Shown here in pieces: positions 19,744 to 64,000 of a DNA stretch of 64,000 bases (position 1 is its first letter; each line of letters begins with the position of its first letter). The notes under the pieces were generated by a model. The model was not told the origin of the DNA. It searched no databases and saw nothing but the letters and a program-made list of their open reading frames with translations. The position numbers and the translations under genes are program-made. Origin of the DNA: Telmatospirillum siberiense (GTDB lineage Bacteria; Pseudomonadota; Alphaproteobacteria; Rhodospirillales; Magnetospirillaceae); contig NZ_PIUM01000002.1 in NCBI RefSeq assembly GCF_002845745.1, positions 1-64,000 of the forward strand, given 5' to 3'.

Positions 19744-21204
19744 TCAGGCCTGGGAGTTCAGGTCGTCGGCGACGCGGGTTATGACTTCTCGCCAATCCCC
19801 AGGACGGTTTTGCCGATAAAGTCGCATCGACGGATACCAGGCCGTGCGGTCCGGACCCGGCAACCAACGCCAATCGGGTGAGGCATGCAGCAATGTCCAG
19901 ACCGGGCGCCCCATGGCGCCGGCGAGATGGGCTGCGGCGGTATCCACGCTGATCAGGAGATCCAGGCCGGTAAGGATTGCAGCCAGATCATCGAAGTCGG
20001 CAATTCCCCCTCCGAGATCGGTGACGCTTTGACCTCCGTCCGTTCGCCGGATGGTGTCGCCTCCCTCCCTTTGCAGGCTGTAAAGAGCCACGCCGGGGAC
20101 GAGCGTCAGTCCGGACAGAAGGTTGGGCGGGATTGCCCGCTTCGGGTCCAGCCCGGCGGCGTTCCCCGCCCAGATTAGACCCACTTTGAGCTTGTCGTCG
20201 TCCCGCGAAAGGGCTTTTCGCCACCTCGCTTCGCGGTCCGGCACGGCGTGGAGATAAGGATCCCCTGGTGCCGCCGCCAGGACGTCCGAGTCGACGCCGA
20301 ATGCGAAGGGCAAGCTGGGGATGGGGATTTCAAAGTCGAAATCGGGAAGCGGAGAGCCCCATTCGATCACATCGGCCACGCCCGGCATCCGTTTGATCAG
20401 GCCCGCCAAAGGGGCGCGGCATTCGACGATCAGTCGTCCGCCGCGTCGCGCCGCTTCCGGCAGATAGCGGCAGAACTGGATGACATCGCCGTAACCCTGT
20501 TCGGCGTGCGCCAGCAAAGTCCGGCCTTCGAAGGGTTTTCCGTCCCAGCGCGGTTGGGAGAAGCTCCTGGGCGGAGAGAGGGGGCGCCATTCCCATTCGG
20601 CGAAGCCCTCCGCCAGATGGCCGGCGGCCAGCAGGGCGTGAGCGTGATTGGCATGATGTCCGGCGACATGGGGGGCCGCCGCGACGGCTCTCCGGTGGGC
20701 CTGGACGGCTTCGGCGGCCAGTTGAAGGTTTTGAAGGCTGATGCCGAGGTTGTTGTGGATTTCGGCGAAGGCCGGCTGCAGCACCAGCGCGTGGCGAAAC
20801 GCCGCGGCCGCGGCTTGGTGACGGTCGGCCTGGGAGAAGGTGACGCCCAATTGGAACCACGCCTGGACGTCGTCAGGATGGATCATGACGCCCTGCAGGT
20901 TGGTCGCGATGACCAAGGCCAGCATCGCGCGGTCAGGCTGCCCCAATGCTTGGTAAGCGCTGCCCAGATGCATATGGGGTTCCGGCGAGGAAGGCGCGGC
21001 ATCGGCGGCGCGTTCCAGGAAAACAGTGCCTTCTTCGGCCGATCCCCGGCGCACCAAGAGCCGACCCAAATGAAGATTTGCTTCGGGATGCGTCGGGTTT
21101 TCCTTGAGCAGGCCACGATAAAAGAGTTCCGCGCCCGTCCAATCGCCGGCTTTTTCGTTTTCAATGGCCTGGGCCAAGAGGAGATCGGAGTAGTCCATAG
21201 GCAT
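19744..21204 (-). CDS. TPR protein with GT9-like glycosyltransferase domain
   Basis: A 486-residue protein. Residues about 1-195 hold tetratricopeptide repeats (for example HPEANLHLGRLLVRRGSAEEGTVFLERA and FAEIHNNLGISLQNLQLAAEAVQAH). The C-terminal 280 residues resemble the heptosyltransferase-like GT9 fold: LLAHAEQGYGDVIQFCRYLPEAARRGGRLIVECRAPLAGL, VGLIWAGN, then DLLISVDTAAAHLAGAMGRPVWTLL. It shares architecture with the protein at 61941-64000. Such TPR/GT proteins commonly sit next to flagellin genes and are thought to take part in protein or surface glycosylation; the actual substrate is unknown. It is a single gene converging on dksA. A multi-hairpin repeat lies about 210 bases upstream of its start. 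Confidence 0.83.
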   Translation of the reverse strand: MPMDYSDLLLAQAIENEKAGDWTGAELFYRGLLKENPTHPEANLHLGRLLVRRGSAEEGTVFLERAADAAPSSPEPHMHLGSAYQALGQPDRAMLALVIATNLQGVMIHPDDVQAWFQLGVTFSQADRHQAAAAAFRHALVLQPAFAEIHNNLGISLQNLQLAAEAVQAHRRAVAAAPHVAGHHANHAHALLAAGHLAEGFAEWEWRPLSPPRSFSQPRWDGKPFEGRTLLAHAEQGYGDVIQFCRYLPEAARRGGRLIVECRAPLAGLIKRMPGVADVIEWGSPLPDFDFEIPIPSLPFAFGVDSDVLAAAPGDPYLHAVPDREARWRKALSRDDDKLKVGLIWAGNAAGLDPKRAIPPNLLSGLTLVPGVALYSLQREGGDTIRRTDGGQSVTDLGGGIADFDDLAAILTGLDLLISVDTAAAHLAGAMGRPVWTLLHASPDWRWLPGPDRTAWYPSMRLYRQNRPGDWREVITRVADDLNSQA

Positions 21205-21412
21205 GTTGATCTGCGGTCTCCAATCTCGATGAACGGTTCAGGTGCATCTGGAGTAAACGGTTGGCGGGATTCAGTGATTCATGATCCAAGCCGTTTGGCA
21301 AGTCCCGCTGAATCGGATCACGCGACTACATCCAGCTGACAAACCGCATGTTTGTGATATGGCCCTGGTCTTGTCTGGCTCGAAAGTGGCAGGCGTGTTA
21401 TCCATGGGGTAA

Positions 21413-21606
21413 TACCAAGTCTCGCTGAGTGCGGTTCATCGAGACTTGGCTGGCCTATTGAGAAGCCGCGCTCCGCCGGCCTTGCCGGCAATTATCGGGA
21501 ATGTGCGCGAAGCGCACAGGGCATTGGCGCAAAGCCCAGGGTTTCGGAGAAACCCGCCCGACGATTGAGGACAGAGGTGATCGGTGCCGATCACCGAGAG
21601 TTGGTA
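21413..21606. repeat. Multi-hairpin structured repeat, copy 1
   Basis: This is the first of two related elements (the other at 61802-61940). In plus orientation it holds, in order: CCAAGTCTCG...CGAGACTTGG, GGCCTATTGAGAAGCC, GCCGGC-CTT-GCCGGC, TGTGCGC-GAA-GCGCACA, GGGTTTC-GGA-GAAACCC, the box CCCGACGATTGAGGAC and GGTGATCGG-TG-CCGATCACC. It begins TACCAA and ends TTGGTA, a short terminal inverted repeat. Relative to copy 2 the stems carry paired changes that keep pairing, while ATTGAG boxes and the CGGAG loop are unchanged. It lies in the 457-base gap between divergent genes at 21204 and 21662, where I see no gene. Read on the minus strand the GGA loop becomes CTCC, an anti-Shine-Dalgarno-like sequence. 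Confidence 0.8.
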
Positions 21607-21661
21607 TAAGACGGCTCCCATTGGGCTGGGGGTGACCCGGATGGTTTGAGGCGAGGGTGGA

Positions 21662-23116
21662 ATGTTAGCTGGATTGGTCATTTCCACGTCTTCCGGACGC
21701 CAGCAACGATTCGACTTCCGTTTTTCGCAAGGTACCTTTGGCGACGAGGACATCTTCGATTCAGCGCTCAGCGTTCCAGGGCGTTACCTCGTGGAGGTTG
21801 CCCGCCGGTTGCGGCGGCAAACGCCCGAGGCTGATTGGTTCGTTGTCGGCAATCCGCTGCTGCCTTTGAGGACCGATCTTCTGGCCGGTTGGCTGGACGG
21901 CCCCCCATCCAGTCCCGTGGTGGCGACCGATCGCGCCAACTTTCCCGTCTTCTATGTTCTGCCGCGCCGTCTTTTCGACGACGCGGAGCGCTTCCTGCTG
22001 CTTCTGTCCGCGTTGGACGCCACTCTCGACGCCTGTTTGCTGACGAGGCTCCTGGGCGAGACGGTGTCGTGCCGGCAGGTGGATCTGGAGCCCGTCGGCG
22101 AGGCCCTGTCGGCCAGCCCTAACGGATGGGTGAATGGCGACCAGAGGCTGCTGTCGCTTAAATTGCAATGCGGCACCGCGCTGAAGCTCATCGAAGAACG
22201 GAGCGACTGGCGGACCTTGCCGTTCGCCACGTTCTATCCGATGCATGCCGGCGACGTTCTTTTCGTGAGCGTGGCCTCGCGTATGGCCGAACAAACGTTC
22301 TTCGGCAAGCACGTGGTCTGTTCGTCCTACATGGACATCCCGGCCGCCTGCGGCAGCCGTTTCGAAGCCATCCGCCTCGATCTTCCATGGATCCCCCGGG
22401 ATGGCTCGGTCAGCGAGTTGACCTATTTTTCCCAGGCGATAGAAAAGCTGGGGTCCGAGGTCTTGGAAGAAAACGTTCTCGTTTTTTCGAGAATTCTTCG
22501 CCTTTATTACCATTCGCCATTTCATCTGGTCGATCAGGCGCGTTTCGCCTTGGGCGAATCGCTCGAGTCCATCAGCCAGACGGTCCATGGCCGGCCCGCC
22601 GCGGAGCAGGCGCGCTGCCGGCTTCCGACGAAGCCGTTGCGCGTCCTGTTCCATTTGAACGGCGGCTGGTCCTTGAAGACCTATCCTCTGGACAAGATGC
22701 GCGTGGTGATCGGCACCTTGCGCAAGCTCGGTGTGGAGGTCAGCGTCCTGTCCCGGCCCGACCTTGAGTCGGCGGGGGCGGTGTCCCTGGAAAGCAAGGA
22801 TTCGGAAACTTTGCGCCGGCTGATCGAAGAGCATCACCTGTTTGTCGGGGTGGATTCATTCCCGCACCATTTTTCCACCCTCGTGGCCGGCTGGCCGACC
22901 ATTGGCCTGTTCGGCAATACCAAGCCCTGTAATTCGGATTCCATGTATCGGGCCGGTTATCGGTCATCGGATCTATCGCTGTCCTGTAACCGTTGCGGCG
23001 CCTATGACGGCTGCCCGGTTTTCGGGACCAAGGAATGCCTCAATTACGCGCCGCCGGCCAAGGTCGTGACCGATATCTTCGATCTGGCGCGCGAGACCTA
23101 TGGTTACGAGCCGTGA
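21662..23116 (+). CDS. GT9-like glycosyltransferase-related protein, paralogue 1 (484 aa)
   Basis: A 484-residue protein of a family I recognise only by its C-terminus, which looks like a GT9/heptosyltransferase donor-binding half: LFVGVDSFPHHFSTLVAGWPTIGLFGNTKPCNSD, followed by a cysteine cluster LSCNRCGAYDGCPVFGTKECLN. The N-terminal 330 residues (FDFRFSQGTFGDEDIFDSA, FVVGNPLLPL, FYVLPRRLFDDAERFLLLLSALD) form a distinct domain shared with the protein at 23749. Both paralogues have exactly 484 residues and are similar throughout. The gene opens a four-gene plus-strand cluster with a methyltransferase-like gene, the paralogue and a GH99-like gene, suggesting joint action in glycan assembly. 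Function is inferred. Confidence 0.75.
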   Translation: MLAGLVISTSSGRQQRFDFRFSQGTFGDEDIFDSALSVPGRYLVEVARRLRRQTPEADWFVVGNPLLPLRTDLLAGWLDGPPSSPVVATDRANFPVFYVLPRRLFDDAERFLLLLSALDATLDACLLTRLLGETVSCRQVDLEPVGEALSASPNGWVNGDQRLLSLKLQCGTALKLIEERSDWRTLPFATFYPMHAGDVLFVSVASRMAEQTFFGKHVVCSSYMDIPAACGSRFEAIRLDLPWIPRDGSVSELTYFSQAIEKLGSEVLEENVLVFSRILRLYYHSPFHLVDQARFALGESLESISQTVHGRPAAEQARCRLPTKPLRVLFHLNGGWSLKTYPLDKMRVVIGTLRKLGVEVSVLSRPDLESAGAVSLESKDSETLRRLIEEHHLFVGVDSFPHHFSTLVAGWPTIGLFGNTKPCNSDSMYRAGYRSSDLSLSCNRCGAYDGCPVFGTKECLNYAPPAKVVTDIFDLARETYGYEP

Positions 23117-61775: not shown

Positions 61776-61801
61776 GGTTACCGATCCGCAAGGTTATTTT
61801 A

Positions 61802-61940
61802 TACCAGGTCTCGATGAGGATAACTCATCGAGACCTGGTCTGGCCCATTGAGGGCCCGCGCCATCGTTGGCGCGAAGCCAAGGGGTGCGGAGGCACCCCG
61901 CCCGGCGATTGAGGGCTCGGTGACCGGTTGCGGTCACCGA
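61802..61940. repeat. Multi-hairpin structured repeat, copy 2
   Basis: This is the second element, same orientation as copy 1: GGTCTCGATGAG-GATAA-CTCATCGAGACC, GGCCC-ATTGA-GGGCC, GCGCCA-TCGT-TGGCGC with TTGGC-GCGAA-GCCAA overlapping, GGGGTGC-GGAG-GCACCCC, the box CCCGGCGATTGAGGGC, and CGGTGACCG-GTTG-CGGTCACCG. It is shorter than copy 1 by about 55 bases and lacks its right terminal repeat because the element abuts the stop codon of the adjacent gene at 61941. Stems differ from copy 1 by paired substitutions while loops are kept. It separates two minus-strand genes, and read on the minus strand carries a CTCC loop. Confidence 0.8.
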
Positions 61941-64000
61941 TTAGTCCATCCATTGTCGCAGGCTTGCCGTGACGCGCTCGACGACGCCATCCCAATCTTC
62001 TGGGGCCATCTGGCGGAACAATCGGAGCGTCGGATACCATGGGCTGTCCTCCCGGCCGCGTCCCCAGCGCCAGCAACCGTCGAAACGCGAGAGGATCCAG
62101 ACCGGCTTGCCCATGGCCCCGGCCAGGTGCGCCGGCGCGGTGTCGACGGAAATGAGCAGGTCCAGGTTGGCGAGCAACCCGGCCGTATCGGCGAAGTCCC
62201 CCAGGTGGGTGGAAAAATCGGCGGGTCGGAGGGCCTGGGCGACGTCATCGAGTTGACCCGCCGCCATTCCCGTCTGCACACTGACGAAGTCGATGCCGGG
62301 GAGAGACAGAAGGGGGCCCAGGCGCGACAATGGCAAGCTGCGCCGGCGATCGATGGCGTGGGCGCCCGCATCCTGTAGCCGCGGATTGCCGGCCCAGACC
62401 AGCCCGACTCGCGGCTTGCGCAGTCCGGCGAGGCGATGGCGCCATGCGGCGACATCCTCAGCCGTGGCGCGCAGATAAGGCACGATGGACGGCCTGGTGC
62501 CGATCGCCGTTCCCATCACATGCGGTAGGCTCATCAGGGGAAGATGGCAGTCGAAGGGCGGCAGGGGATCGCCGGCCGCCACGATTCGCAAGGTCCCGTC
62601 GAGACTGTCCAGCAAGCGGGCCAACGGCGGATAGGCCTCGACGACGACGGTGCCGCCCCGCGCGGCGACGAGCGGAGCGTAACGGACGAATTGGATGACG
62701 TCGCCGAACCCCTGTTCTCCATGCAGAAGGATGGTTCGGCCCGTCAGGTCTTCGCCTTGCCAGCGGGGCTCGCTGAAATCGCGCTCCGCCAGATTGGCCA
62801 GCCCCCCTTTCCAGCGCCATTCATAGTCGTCCCACCCGCTCTCGTCATTGCCGTTCGCCAGATGGGCCATGCCCCGGTTGGTCAGGGCTTCGGCATAGCG
62901 GGGGTTGAGGAGGACGGCACGGTCATAGGCTGAGATCGCCTCCTCCAGCCGTCCCATCTGATGCAGCGTCACGCCCAGATTGTTCTGCGGTTCGGGGTCG
63001 TCCGGACGGCAGGTGATCGCCGAGCGGTAGGCGGCGATCGCCAGATCCGGCCGGCGCAGTTCCATCAGCGTCACGGCGAGATTGTTATAGGCCTCGCCAT
63101 AGTCGGGATGGAGAGAAAGGGCCTGACGGAAGGCGGCGACGGCTTCCGTCAGGCGGCCTTGTTCCTTGAGGACGATGCCCAGATTGTTATGCGCCTTCGG
63201 ATAATCGGAACGGATCCCGATGCTGGTTCGCTGCGCGGCCTCCGCTTCGGCGAGCCTGCCGGCGCCGCGCAGGGCGCTCCCGAGATTGGTGTTGATTTCG
63301 GAACTGTCGGGATGAACCGACAAGGCGGCCTGATAGGCGGCCACCGCTTCCGGCAACCGGCCATGATGTTGAAATGCCAGGCCCAGATTATAGAGAGCCT
63401 CCCAGTAGCCGGGTCGGATCAGCAGGGCCGTTCGCAGGGCGCCGATGGCCTGGTCGAAGAGATCCTGATCCTTGAGGGCGTTGCCCAGATTGTTGAATGT
63501 CTGGGCGTCGTCGGGAACCAAAGTCAGGACCGCGCGGTAGGCGGTGGCGGCCTCGGCTGGACGGCCTTGCTCTTGAAGGACGACGCCCAGGCAATAATGG
63601 GCGTGCGGGTCGAGGGGGCGCGCGGCGATCGCCTGGCGGAAGACGCGTTCCGCTTCGTCCGGCCGTTTCCGGTCCAGCCAGGTCTTGCCGAGATTGATCA
63701 GCGCTTCCGGATAGTTCGCCTTGAGGCGCAAGGCGCGATGATAGGCTGCCTGCGCCGCGTCGGGGCACCCTTGAGCCCGGTAGGCGTTGCCCAGATTGTT
63801 GTGTCCCTCGGGACTTGCCGGAACCAACGCCAGGAAGCGGCGGATCAAGGTGGCGGCCAGGCCGTCACGTCGCGTTTGCAGGGCGACGGCGCCGAGAAGA
63901 TGCAGTCCGTCGGGATGATCGGGCCAAGCCGCCAGAAGATGGCGATAGCCGGTTTCCGCCTCGGCCAGACGTCCCGACAGATGATGGGTGCGGGCTTCCA
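61941..64000 (-). CDS. TPR protein with GT9-like domain, N-terminus beyond the right edge
   Basis: The frame is open to the window end (codons in phase to 63998), so the start lies outside; at least 685 residues are visible. Nearly 400 residues are tandem TPR units of the form NLGxxxxxxGxxxEAxxAYxxAL (about ten to eleven in sight). The C-terminal part repeats the GT9-like landmarks of the 19744-21204 protein: GRTILLHGEQGFGDVIQFVRYAPLVAARGGTVVVEAYPPLARLL, VGLVWAGN, DLLISVDTAPAHLAGAMGKPVWILSRFDGCWRW. Probably a protein or polysaccharide glycosylation factor in the flagellin neighbourhood; substrate unknown. Its stop codon touches the structured repeat copy 2. Confidence 0.85.
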   Translation of the reverse strand, partial: EARTHHLSGRLAEAETGYRHLLAAWPDHPDGLHLLGAVALQTRRDGLAATLIRRFLALVPASPEGHNNLGNAYRAQGCPDAAQAAYHRALRLKANYPEALINLGKTWLDRKRPDEAERVFRQAIAARPLDPHAHYCLGVVLQEQGRPAEAATAYRAVLTLVPDDAQTFNNLGNALKDQDLFDQAIGALRTALLIRPGYWEALYNLGLAFQHHGRLPEAVAAYQAALSVHPDSSEINTNLGSALRGAGRLAEAEAAQRTSIGIRSDYPKAHNNLGIVLKEQGRLTEAVAAFRQALSLHPDYGEAYNNLAVTLMELRRPDLAIAAYRSAITCRPDDPEPQNNLGVTLHQMGRLEEAISAYDRAVLLNPRYAEALTNRGMAHLANGNDESGWDDYEWRWKGGLANLAERDFSEPRWQGEDLTGRTILLHGEQGFGDVIQFVRYAPLVAARGGTVVVEAYPPLARLLDSLDGTLRIVAAGDPLPPFDCHLPLMSLPHVMGTAIGTRPSIVPYLRATAEDVAAWRHRLAGLRKPRVGLVWAGNPRLQDAGAHAIDRRRSLPLSRLGPLLSLPGIDFVSVQTGMAAGQLDDVAQALRPADFSTHLGDFADTAGLLANLDLLISVDTAPAHLAGAMGKPVWILSRFDGCWRWGRGREDSPWYPTLRLFRQMAPEDWDGVVERVTASLRQWMD

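Follow-up and report, generated by a model that had tools for sequence, protein, structure and literature searches.

A dispersed multi-hairpin repeat of Telmatospirillum siberiense with ends resembling those of IS630-type insertion sequences

Is the chain of hairpins at positions 21413-21606 of the window, a stretch of 64,000 nucleotides from Telmatospirillum siberiense, the trace of a noncoding RNA, or is it a piece of mobile DNA? The initial annotation, which compared two copies, had offered both possibilities, and the answer depends on the form and spread of the copies, on the changes in their stems and on the sites where they lie.

Form and spread of the copies

The element at 21413-21606 (copy 1, plus strand) measures 194 nt without its target duplication and scored 113.5 bits with the covariance model R1. 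It begins with TACC (21413-21416), ends with GGTA (21603-21606) and lies directly between two TAA triplets (21410-21412 and 21607-21609), which are read here from the sequence as target duplications, a class that was tested over many copies. The repeat is real, and the limits first given for it are exact. The order of the hairpins is constant among the copies: H1 at the left end, H2, H3, a GAAGCCAAGG-like linker, H4, H5 and H6 at the right end, with the loops CGGA in H4 and GGCGNNTGA in H5. On the plus strand of copy 1, H1 occupies 21415-21449; H2, which includes the first ATTGAG box, lies at 21452-21467 and is paired over a shorter length than in the consensus. H4 (21539-21555) reads GGGTTTC-GGA-GAAACCC with the conserved CGGAG loop, as seen in the sequence and in the covariation counts, and H5 (21556-21572, GCCC...ATTGAG...) contains the second ATTGAG box, but with GAGGAC replacing GAGGGC its pairing is partly lost. 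H6 follows at 21576-21596. The hairpins, the ATTGAG boxes and the CGGAG loop of the initial annotation were thus all recovered.

Copy 1 is not the standard form, however. It is a long form with about 50 nt of extra hairpin module inside the loop of H3 (21472-21523, plus strand; limits approximate and drawn partly by eye), which is absent from copy 2 and common to L009, L010, L011, L012, L016 and L047. The box at its left end is also worn, matching a Sinorhizobium IS end at 16 of 25 positions. The folding of 21406-21612 beat all of 200 dinucleotide shuffles (z of -5.3 on the plus strand and -6.1 on the minus strand). The copy lies between divergent called genes and off any stop codon. To its left, a remnant of 54 bp (21271-21324) comes from another IS630-type element, of which it represents the right end, at 87% to L282.

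Copy 2 (61802-61940, plus strand) has the standard form, with 171.7 bits for R1 and 63.5 bits for the core model R2, and lacks the last 9 bp of the consensus, GAGTTGGTA, at its right end. Its target duplication is TTA on both sides (61799-61801 and 61941-61943), and the right TTA is the stop codon of a called gene on the minus strand (61941-63848).

In the own genome (6.2 Mb, 81 contigs), two DNA searches with 40 candidates scored in each found 66 and 49 matching pieces. Alignment A1, made of 29 standard copies of this genome, was the source of R1, with which the genome-wide covariance-model search proposed in the initial annotation was run. Here R1 gave at least 140 rows at E up to 0.001 (150 places scored), some of the weaker ones falling on the opposite strand of palindromes already matched or on tandem core arrays, and at least 46 rows of 90 bits or more, copy 1 included. 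Over the own genome and 60 relatives, with up to 49 places scored in each, R1 matched in 38 of 61 genomes and in 20 of 41 genera, the rows listed being mostly 150-155 nt long, and the further covariation expected of such a search was found as well. The copies taken for analysis from related genomes were high-scoring ones. In one relative, G013, nine compared copies (L357-L365) were 97% alike and look recent; some other copies of this genome were at contig ends. Carriage by plasmids or phages was rejected, with one partial plasmid match from two queries and no match to a phage. No prior description of the repeat, or of an IS630 branch that duplicates TNA, was found in a literature search that had most subscription papers outside its coverage and included the available parts of PMC2229807, PMC10969869 and PMC2873474.

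The copies have no conserved gene: 28 of 30 own copies have some fully open frame, but any given frame is open in at most 18 of the 30. Deletion forms of 94 nt (L090, L094, L095, L096, L099 and L102) have the ATTGAGGGC boxes of H2 and H5 fused. A second type of insert (GCAGCCCGAAGGGC...GCAACGG) splits the core linker in L012, L047, L052, L054 and L100, as if hairpin modules had been swapped.

Paired changes and the structured core

The stems had been reported to differ in pairs between the two copies of the window, and this pattern extends well beyond them. Over the 29 standard own copies, pairing was kept in 98.4% of cells, and 12 of 46 pairs were changed on both sides, compared to a shuffled mean of 3.6 (0 of 500 shuffles). 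In a mixed set of 29 copies (27 related and two own), both sides had changed in 124 cells, where shuffles gave 32.7 (again 0 of 500), although in the own-genome register only 60% of the H2 pairs and 45% of the H3 pairs were formed. It is plausible, rather than proven, that the paired changes reflect a selected structure. In a DNA palindrome, paired change can also come from one arm templating the other.

If repair templated by the hairpin at replication keeps the arms alike, the paired changes would be unselected and the repeat could be inert mobile DNA, which is compatible with the reading as a transposon derivative given below. The arms of H1, H4 and H6 vary in pairs even within one genome, and the element is mobile and intergenic, as this explanation would have it. 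However, arm templating alone would not fix unpaired boxes across genera, and in the copies found with R1 the CGGA loop was present in 28 of 29 and the apex of H6 in 27 of 29, even if R1, being built from own copies, favours matches with fixed unpaired boxes. We regard unselected pairing as less likely than not.

Between H1 and H6 lies a core that consists of a variable H2, then H3, the linker, H4 and H5. A pattern for H4-H5 matched named Alphaproteobacteria, including Magnetospirillum, Azospirillum, Niveispirillum, Roseomonas, Terasakiella and Erythrobacter (80 of 117 stretches listed, of which at least four, L151, L160, L179 and L206, look like chance). Because this pattern fixed CGGA, CCGCCCGSCG and TGAGGG, and later selections also needed a match to the linker, the boxes in the alignments A2 and A3 owe part of their conservation to the way in which the copies were chosen. 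The model R2 covers H3-H5 only, H2 being badly aligned. Its covariation amounted to 57 cells compared to 23.6 in shuffles (0 of 500), with the CCC/GGG stem of H5 invariant and so uninformative. At E up to 1e-4, and with up to 14 places scored per genome, R2 had matches in 36 of the 385 alphaproteobacterial genomes; the core of copy 1 was not matched by it.

The core also exists without H1 and H6, singly or in tandem arrays. Four tandem units of 102 nt stand between genes read as aroA and cmk (L390:2902-3268), and the last TGAGGG of this array is about 9 nt ahead of the cmk start. Further tandem cores of the own genome are at L391:57-337, L392:2022-2192, L393:884-1054 and L394:2056-2227, and in those read at L105 the spacer is of the ACAAAATTTATAACCGG type, with H1 and H6 absent. 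Among the 67 of 110 R2 rows that could be assigned a place, 52 were flanked by a called gene on either side (six of them in divergent regions), two were inside a called gene and 13 at an edge.

Landing sites and a probable IS630-type partner

Duplication of a TNA target is a regular feature of the copies. Among copies with exact ends, the 3-nt flanks were identical in 20 of 22 from the own genome (mean of permutations 8.1; 0 of 10000 reached 20) and in 14 of 16 from relatives (mean 6.3; 0 of 10000 reached 14). The filter for exact TACC/GGTA ends had removed 38 of the 60 own copies and 4 of the 20 related ones; in another set filtered in this way 26 of 56 were removed. At fixed positions and with no end filter, the flanks were identical in 39 of 57 related copies (L356, at a contig end, was left out), and the middle base of TNA agreed between the flanks in 38 of 45. 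By eye, the TNA flanks were identical in all six 94-nt forms examined. At the orthologous gene pair of a congener (G002) the element is absent and another ORF lies in between, so that this is not a clean empty site, and none was found.

Any TNA is a stop codon, either on one strand (TAA, TGA) or on the other (TTA, TCA), and the copies are found on stop codons in excess. In relatives, the target coincided exactly with the in-frame stop of a neighbouring ORF in 34 of 57 copies, compared to 63 of 471 in a local control (p=9e-14) made of TNA sites within 120 bp, sites inside genes included. In the own genome this was so for 18 of 60 copies, a hand count requiring the stop at offset 0 and a GC3 of at least 0.6, compared to 61 of 485 non-coding or stop TNA sites in the window (p=8e-4), a control that leaves out TNA sites inside genes. 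The test rests on ORF openness and GC3, without a gene finder. Only 3 of 16 IS630-type IS copies were on a stop codon. The excess may come from either target choice or survival: the duplication of TNA restores the stop, and an intrinsic target preference perhaps adds to this.

TNA duplication is known from IS1031 and ISL2, which are of the IS5 type, and for this reason an IS5-type partner was suspected first. This candidate was rejected. PF01609 had one match in the own genome and PF13586 none there, and at the IS5-like loci of relatives no inverted-repeat pair found began with TACC. A scan for TNA-bounded TACC/GGTA pairs led to an IS630-type element of the own genome that adjoins a copy of the repeat; a second such pair, in L156, was taken as chance. 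The element (L282:1391-2557) belongs to a second IS630 subtype, with ends TACCGGCGAAC, flanks TGA/TGA and a transposase in two frames, and its TGA is common to the right end of the neighbouring copy. No cognate IS was found in the own genome, where the single DDE_3 match is an IS of this other subtype.

The search with DDE_3 also yielded L279, an IS that is similar to the repeat at both ends. For 33 exact-ended copies, comparison beyond TACC gave 14.2 of 22 matching positions between the left end and the transposase-upstream end of L279 (mean 5.4 and maximum 11.8 in 2000 shuffles), and 10.7 of 16 between the right end and the opposite end of L279 (mean 4.0 and maximum 9.8). Since the crossed comparison gave nearly equal values (13.7 and 10.2), the assignment of the ends rests on their boxes. 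All 16 IS copies have GACT at positions 21-24 of one end, and 14 of the 16 have RACC on the other end, although L279 itself is without the RACC box. In the repeat, GACT stands at the exact position in the left end of 11 of the 29 own copies and 18 of the 29 in the mixed set, and RACC in the right end of 21 of 29 and 26 of 29. H1 of copy 1 may accordingly be read as the counterpart of the transposase-upstream end, and the TGATCGG box in H6 as that of the other end, with CACC here compared to AACC in the consensus. When the 234 TACC sites of the window were compared with one end of a Sinorhizobium IS, the right end of copy 1 scored highest, with 19 of 24 positions.

A search of 297 genomes of the order found relatives of the L279 protein in 43. 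Plausible TACC ends, 1140-1179 bp apart, were recognized at 15 of 30 IS loci, and 9 of these 15 had identical 3-bp TNA flanks, a count that leans to a match because the end-finder rewarded identical flanks. With the same end-finder, three of three named Sinorhizobium copies on plasmids had such ends between TTA and TTA. A Methylosinus copy had the flanks TAG/TAA, and the search for ends of a Niveispirillum copy found none. Rhizobial plasmids carry this IS630 branch widely (L396, L397 and L398), and the L309 protein matches 286 plasmid records. The pattern TNATACC-N9-TGA-N4-GACTC occurred in 26 of 385 genomes of the class and 98 times in G013, while the reversed pattern had one match overall. 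G013 gave no DDE_3 match and no match to the L279 protein.

The partner IS has the DDE_3 domain (PF13358) and a winged-helix N-terminus (PF13592), and its relatives are annotated in their records as IS630 family transposases. Its scores against NF033545 were 79.5-115 bits, with the cut-off of 100 passed by one of four pieces. The usual target duplication of the IS630 family is the 2-bp TA, whereas the IS copies here have a 3-bp TNA and the IS of the own genome has TGA/TGA. In rhizobial records, the transposase coding sequences are annotated with lengths of 1061 and 1064 nt, which would fit a programmed frameshift; decay is the alternative explanation of the two-frame ORFs.

These observations lead us to suggest that the element is very probably a MITE without its own gene, moved in trans by a transposase of the IS630 family (DDE_3). 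Short, multi-copy and dispersed, without a conserved gene and with a target duplication, it has ends resembling those of autonomous ISs of relatives and rhizobial plasmids, as expected of a MITE. The transposase would bind both end hairpins. The left consensus TACC-N9-TGA-N4-GACTC and the right one, read inward, TACC-N9-TGATC-N2-RACC, would be the asymmetric box pair of the two IS ends. A cut at TACC/GGTA and joining to a TNA target would duplicate the TNA, and a landing on a stop codon would rebuild the stop and leave the gene intact. The core carried between the ends may be an older intergenic repeat of Alphaproteobacteria that was captured. The weak points of the MITE reading are the absence of a cognate IS from the own genome and the recent-looking copies of G013 in a genome without a DDE_3 match.

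Rival readings and known repeats

Several known repeats are similar in part. The RUP of Streptococcus pneumoniae, an IS630 MITE described in PMC2229807, likewise measures about 100-200 bp, encodes no protein and has IS630-family ends and a target duplication. RUP and IS630-Spn1 use TA targets according to the same source, whereas the element described here has a 3-bp TNA, a chain of six hairpins, a core that also lives without the ends and an excess on stop codons. The CIR of Caulobacter and Brucella (Chen and Shapiro 2003, as described in PMC2229807 and PMC10969869) is likewise alphaproteobacterial and intergenic, with two palindromic arms and a linker, a terminal TA and a GANTC near one loop. 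Going by the description of CIR, the 94-nt forms here may correspond to its architecture of two arms plus linker over about 110 bp. The GANTC of CIR is conserved, whereas in our element it occurs within the apex of H1 in 13 of 29 own and 17 of 29 mixed-set copies, and with these counts we rejected GANTC as a conserved methylation site. The way in which CIR spreads is left open in the review consulted. One might imagine that the CIRs are MITEs of the TNA-duplicating IS630 branch, that their GANTC is the GACTC end box and not a methylation signal, and that the MITE described here took up a functional core, with the GGCGNNTGA loop beside a TGAGGG usable as a ribosome-binding site, and spreads it to the ends of genes; as a whole we consider this unlikely.

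The reading as RNA is improbable. It holds that a structured noncoding RNA gene or a cis-regulatory RNA was spread secondarily, its fold being kept as RNA and its CGGA and GGCGNNTGA loops binding a partner. The covarying stems and the existence of the core without mobile ends would fit this, as would the spacing to genes: five of the 19 placements in sense orientation have the end of the core model 7-8 nt ahead of the called start codon, which, judged from the sequence, may be a Shine-Dalgarno spacing for TGAGGG. However, the orientation bias is weak, with 19 sense and 11 antisense placements of the core (p=0.20) and with the gene on the left in 23 and on the right in 11 of the related copies on a stop codon (p=0.058). 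Rfam gave no match at gathering score in the window and none at E up to 1 in 21200-21670, and the six rows of a further search were all below gathering. A promoter-like or terminator-like site was looked for in copy 1 and none was found, and the IS ends account for the end boxes. Between the two possibilities of the initial annotation, the small non-autonomous mobile repeat is thus the better supported, by the duplications, the dispersal and the IS630-like ends, while the RNA gained no direct support.

It is highly improbable that the whole element is a palindrome of the REP/BIME type, mobilised by a RAYT (Y1) transposase: the intergenic palindromes, the tandem arrays of the core and one Y1_Tnp match in the own genome resemble that system, but only our element has a target duplication and IS630-like ends, and a RAYT/IS200 partner did not fit. 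Movement of the RAYT type is not known to leave a target duplication, and it could apply to the core alone.

The MITE reading joins three things, a structured repeat of many Alphaproteobacteria that is absent from Rfam 15, a transposon type able to move it and a target rule. Because a TNA always reads as a stop codon on one of the two strands, duplication of TNA allows an element to settle at the ends of genes without breaking them, and this would help to explain how such repeats fill compact genomes. Stem covariation can mark a transposon end and not an RNA, which calls for caution when RNAs are sought across whole genomes. Should the core function as an RNA, its transposon would spread a ready-made regulatory part.

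The 30 loci of the end-pattern search, inspected by eye, include the starts of full IS copies as well as MITE-sized elements with and without the core. Three of MITE size, L405, L424 and L430 (162-261 bp), share the pattern of the left end and are matched in their right flank, but they carry different cargo.
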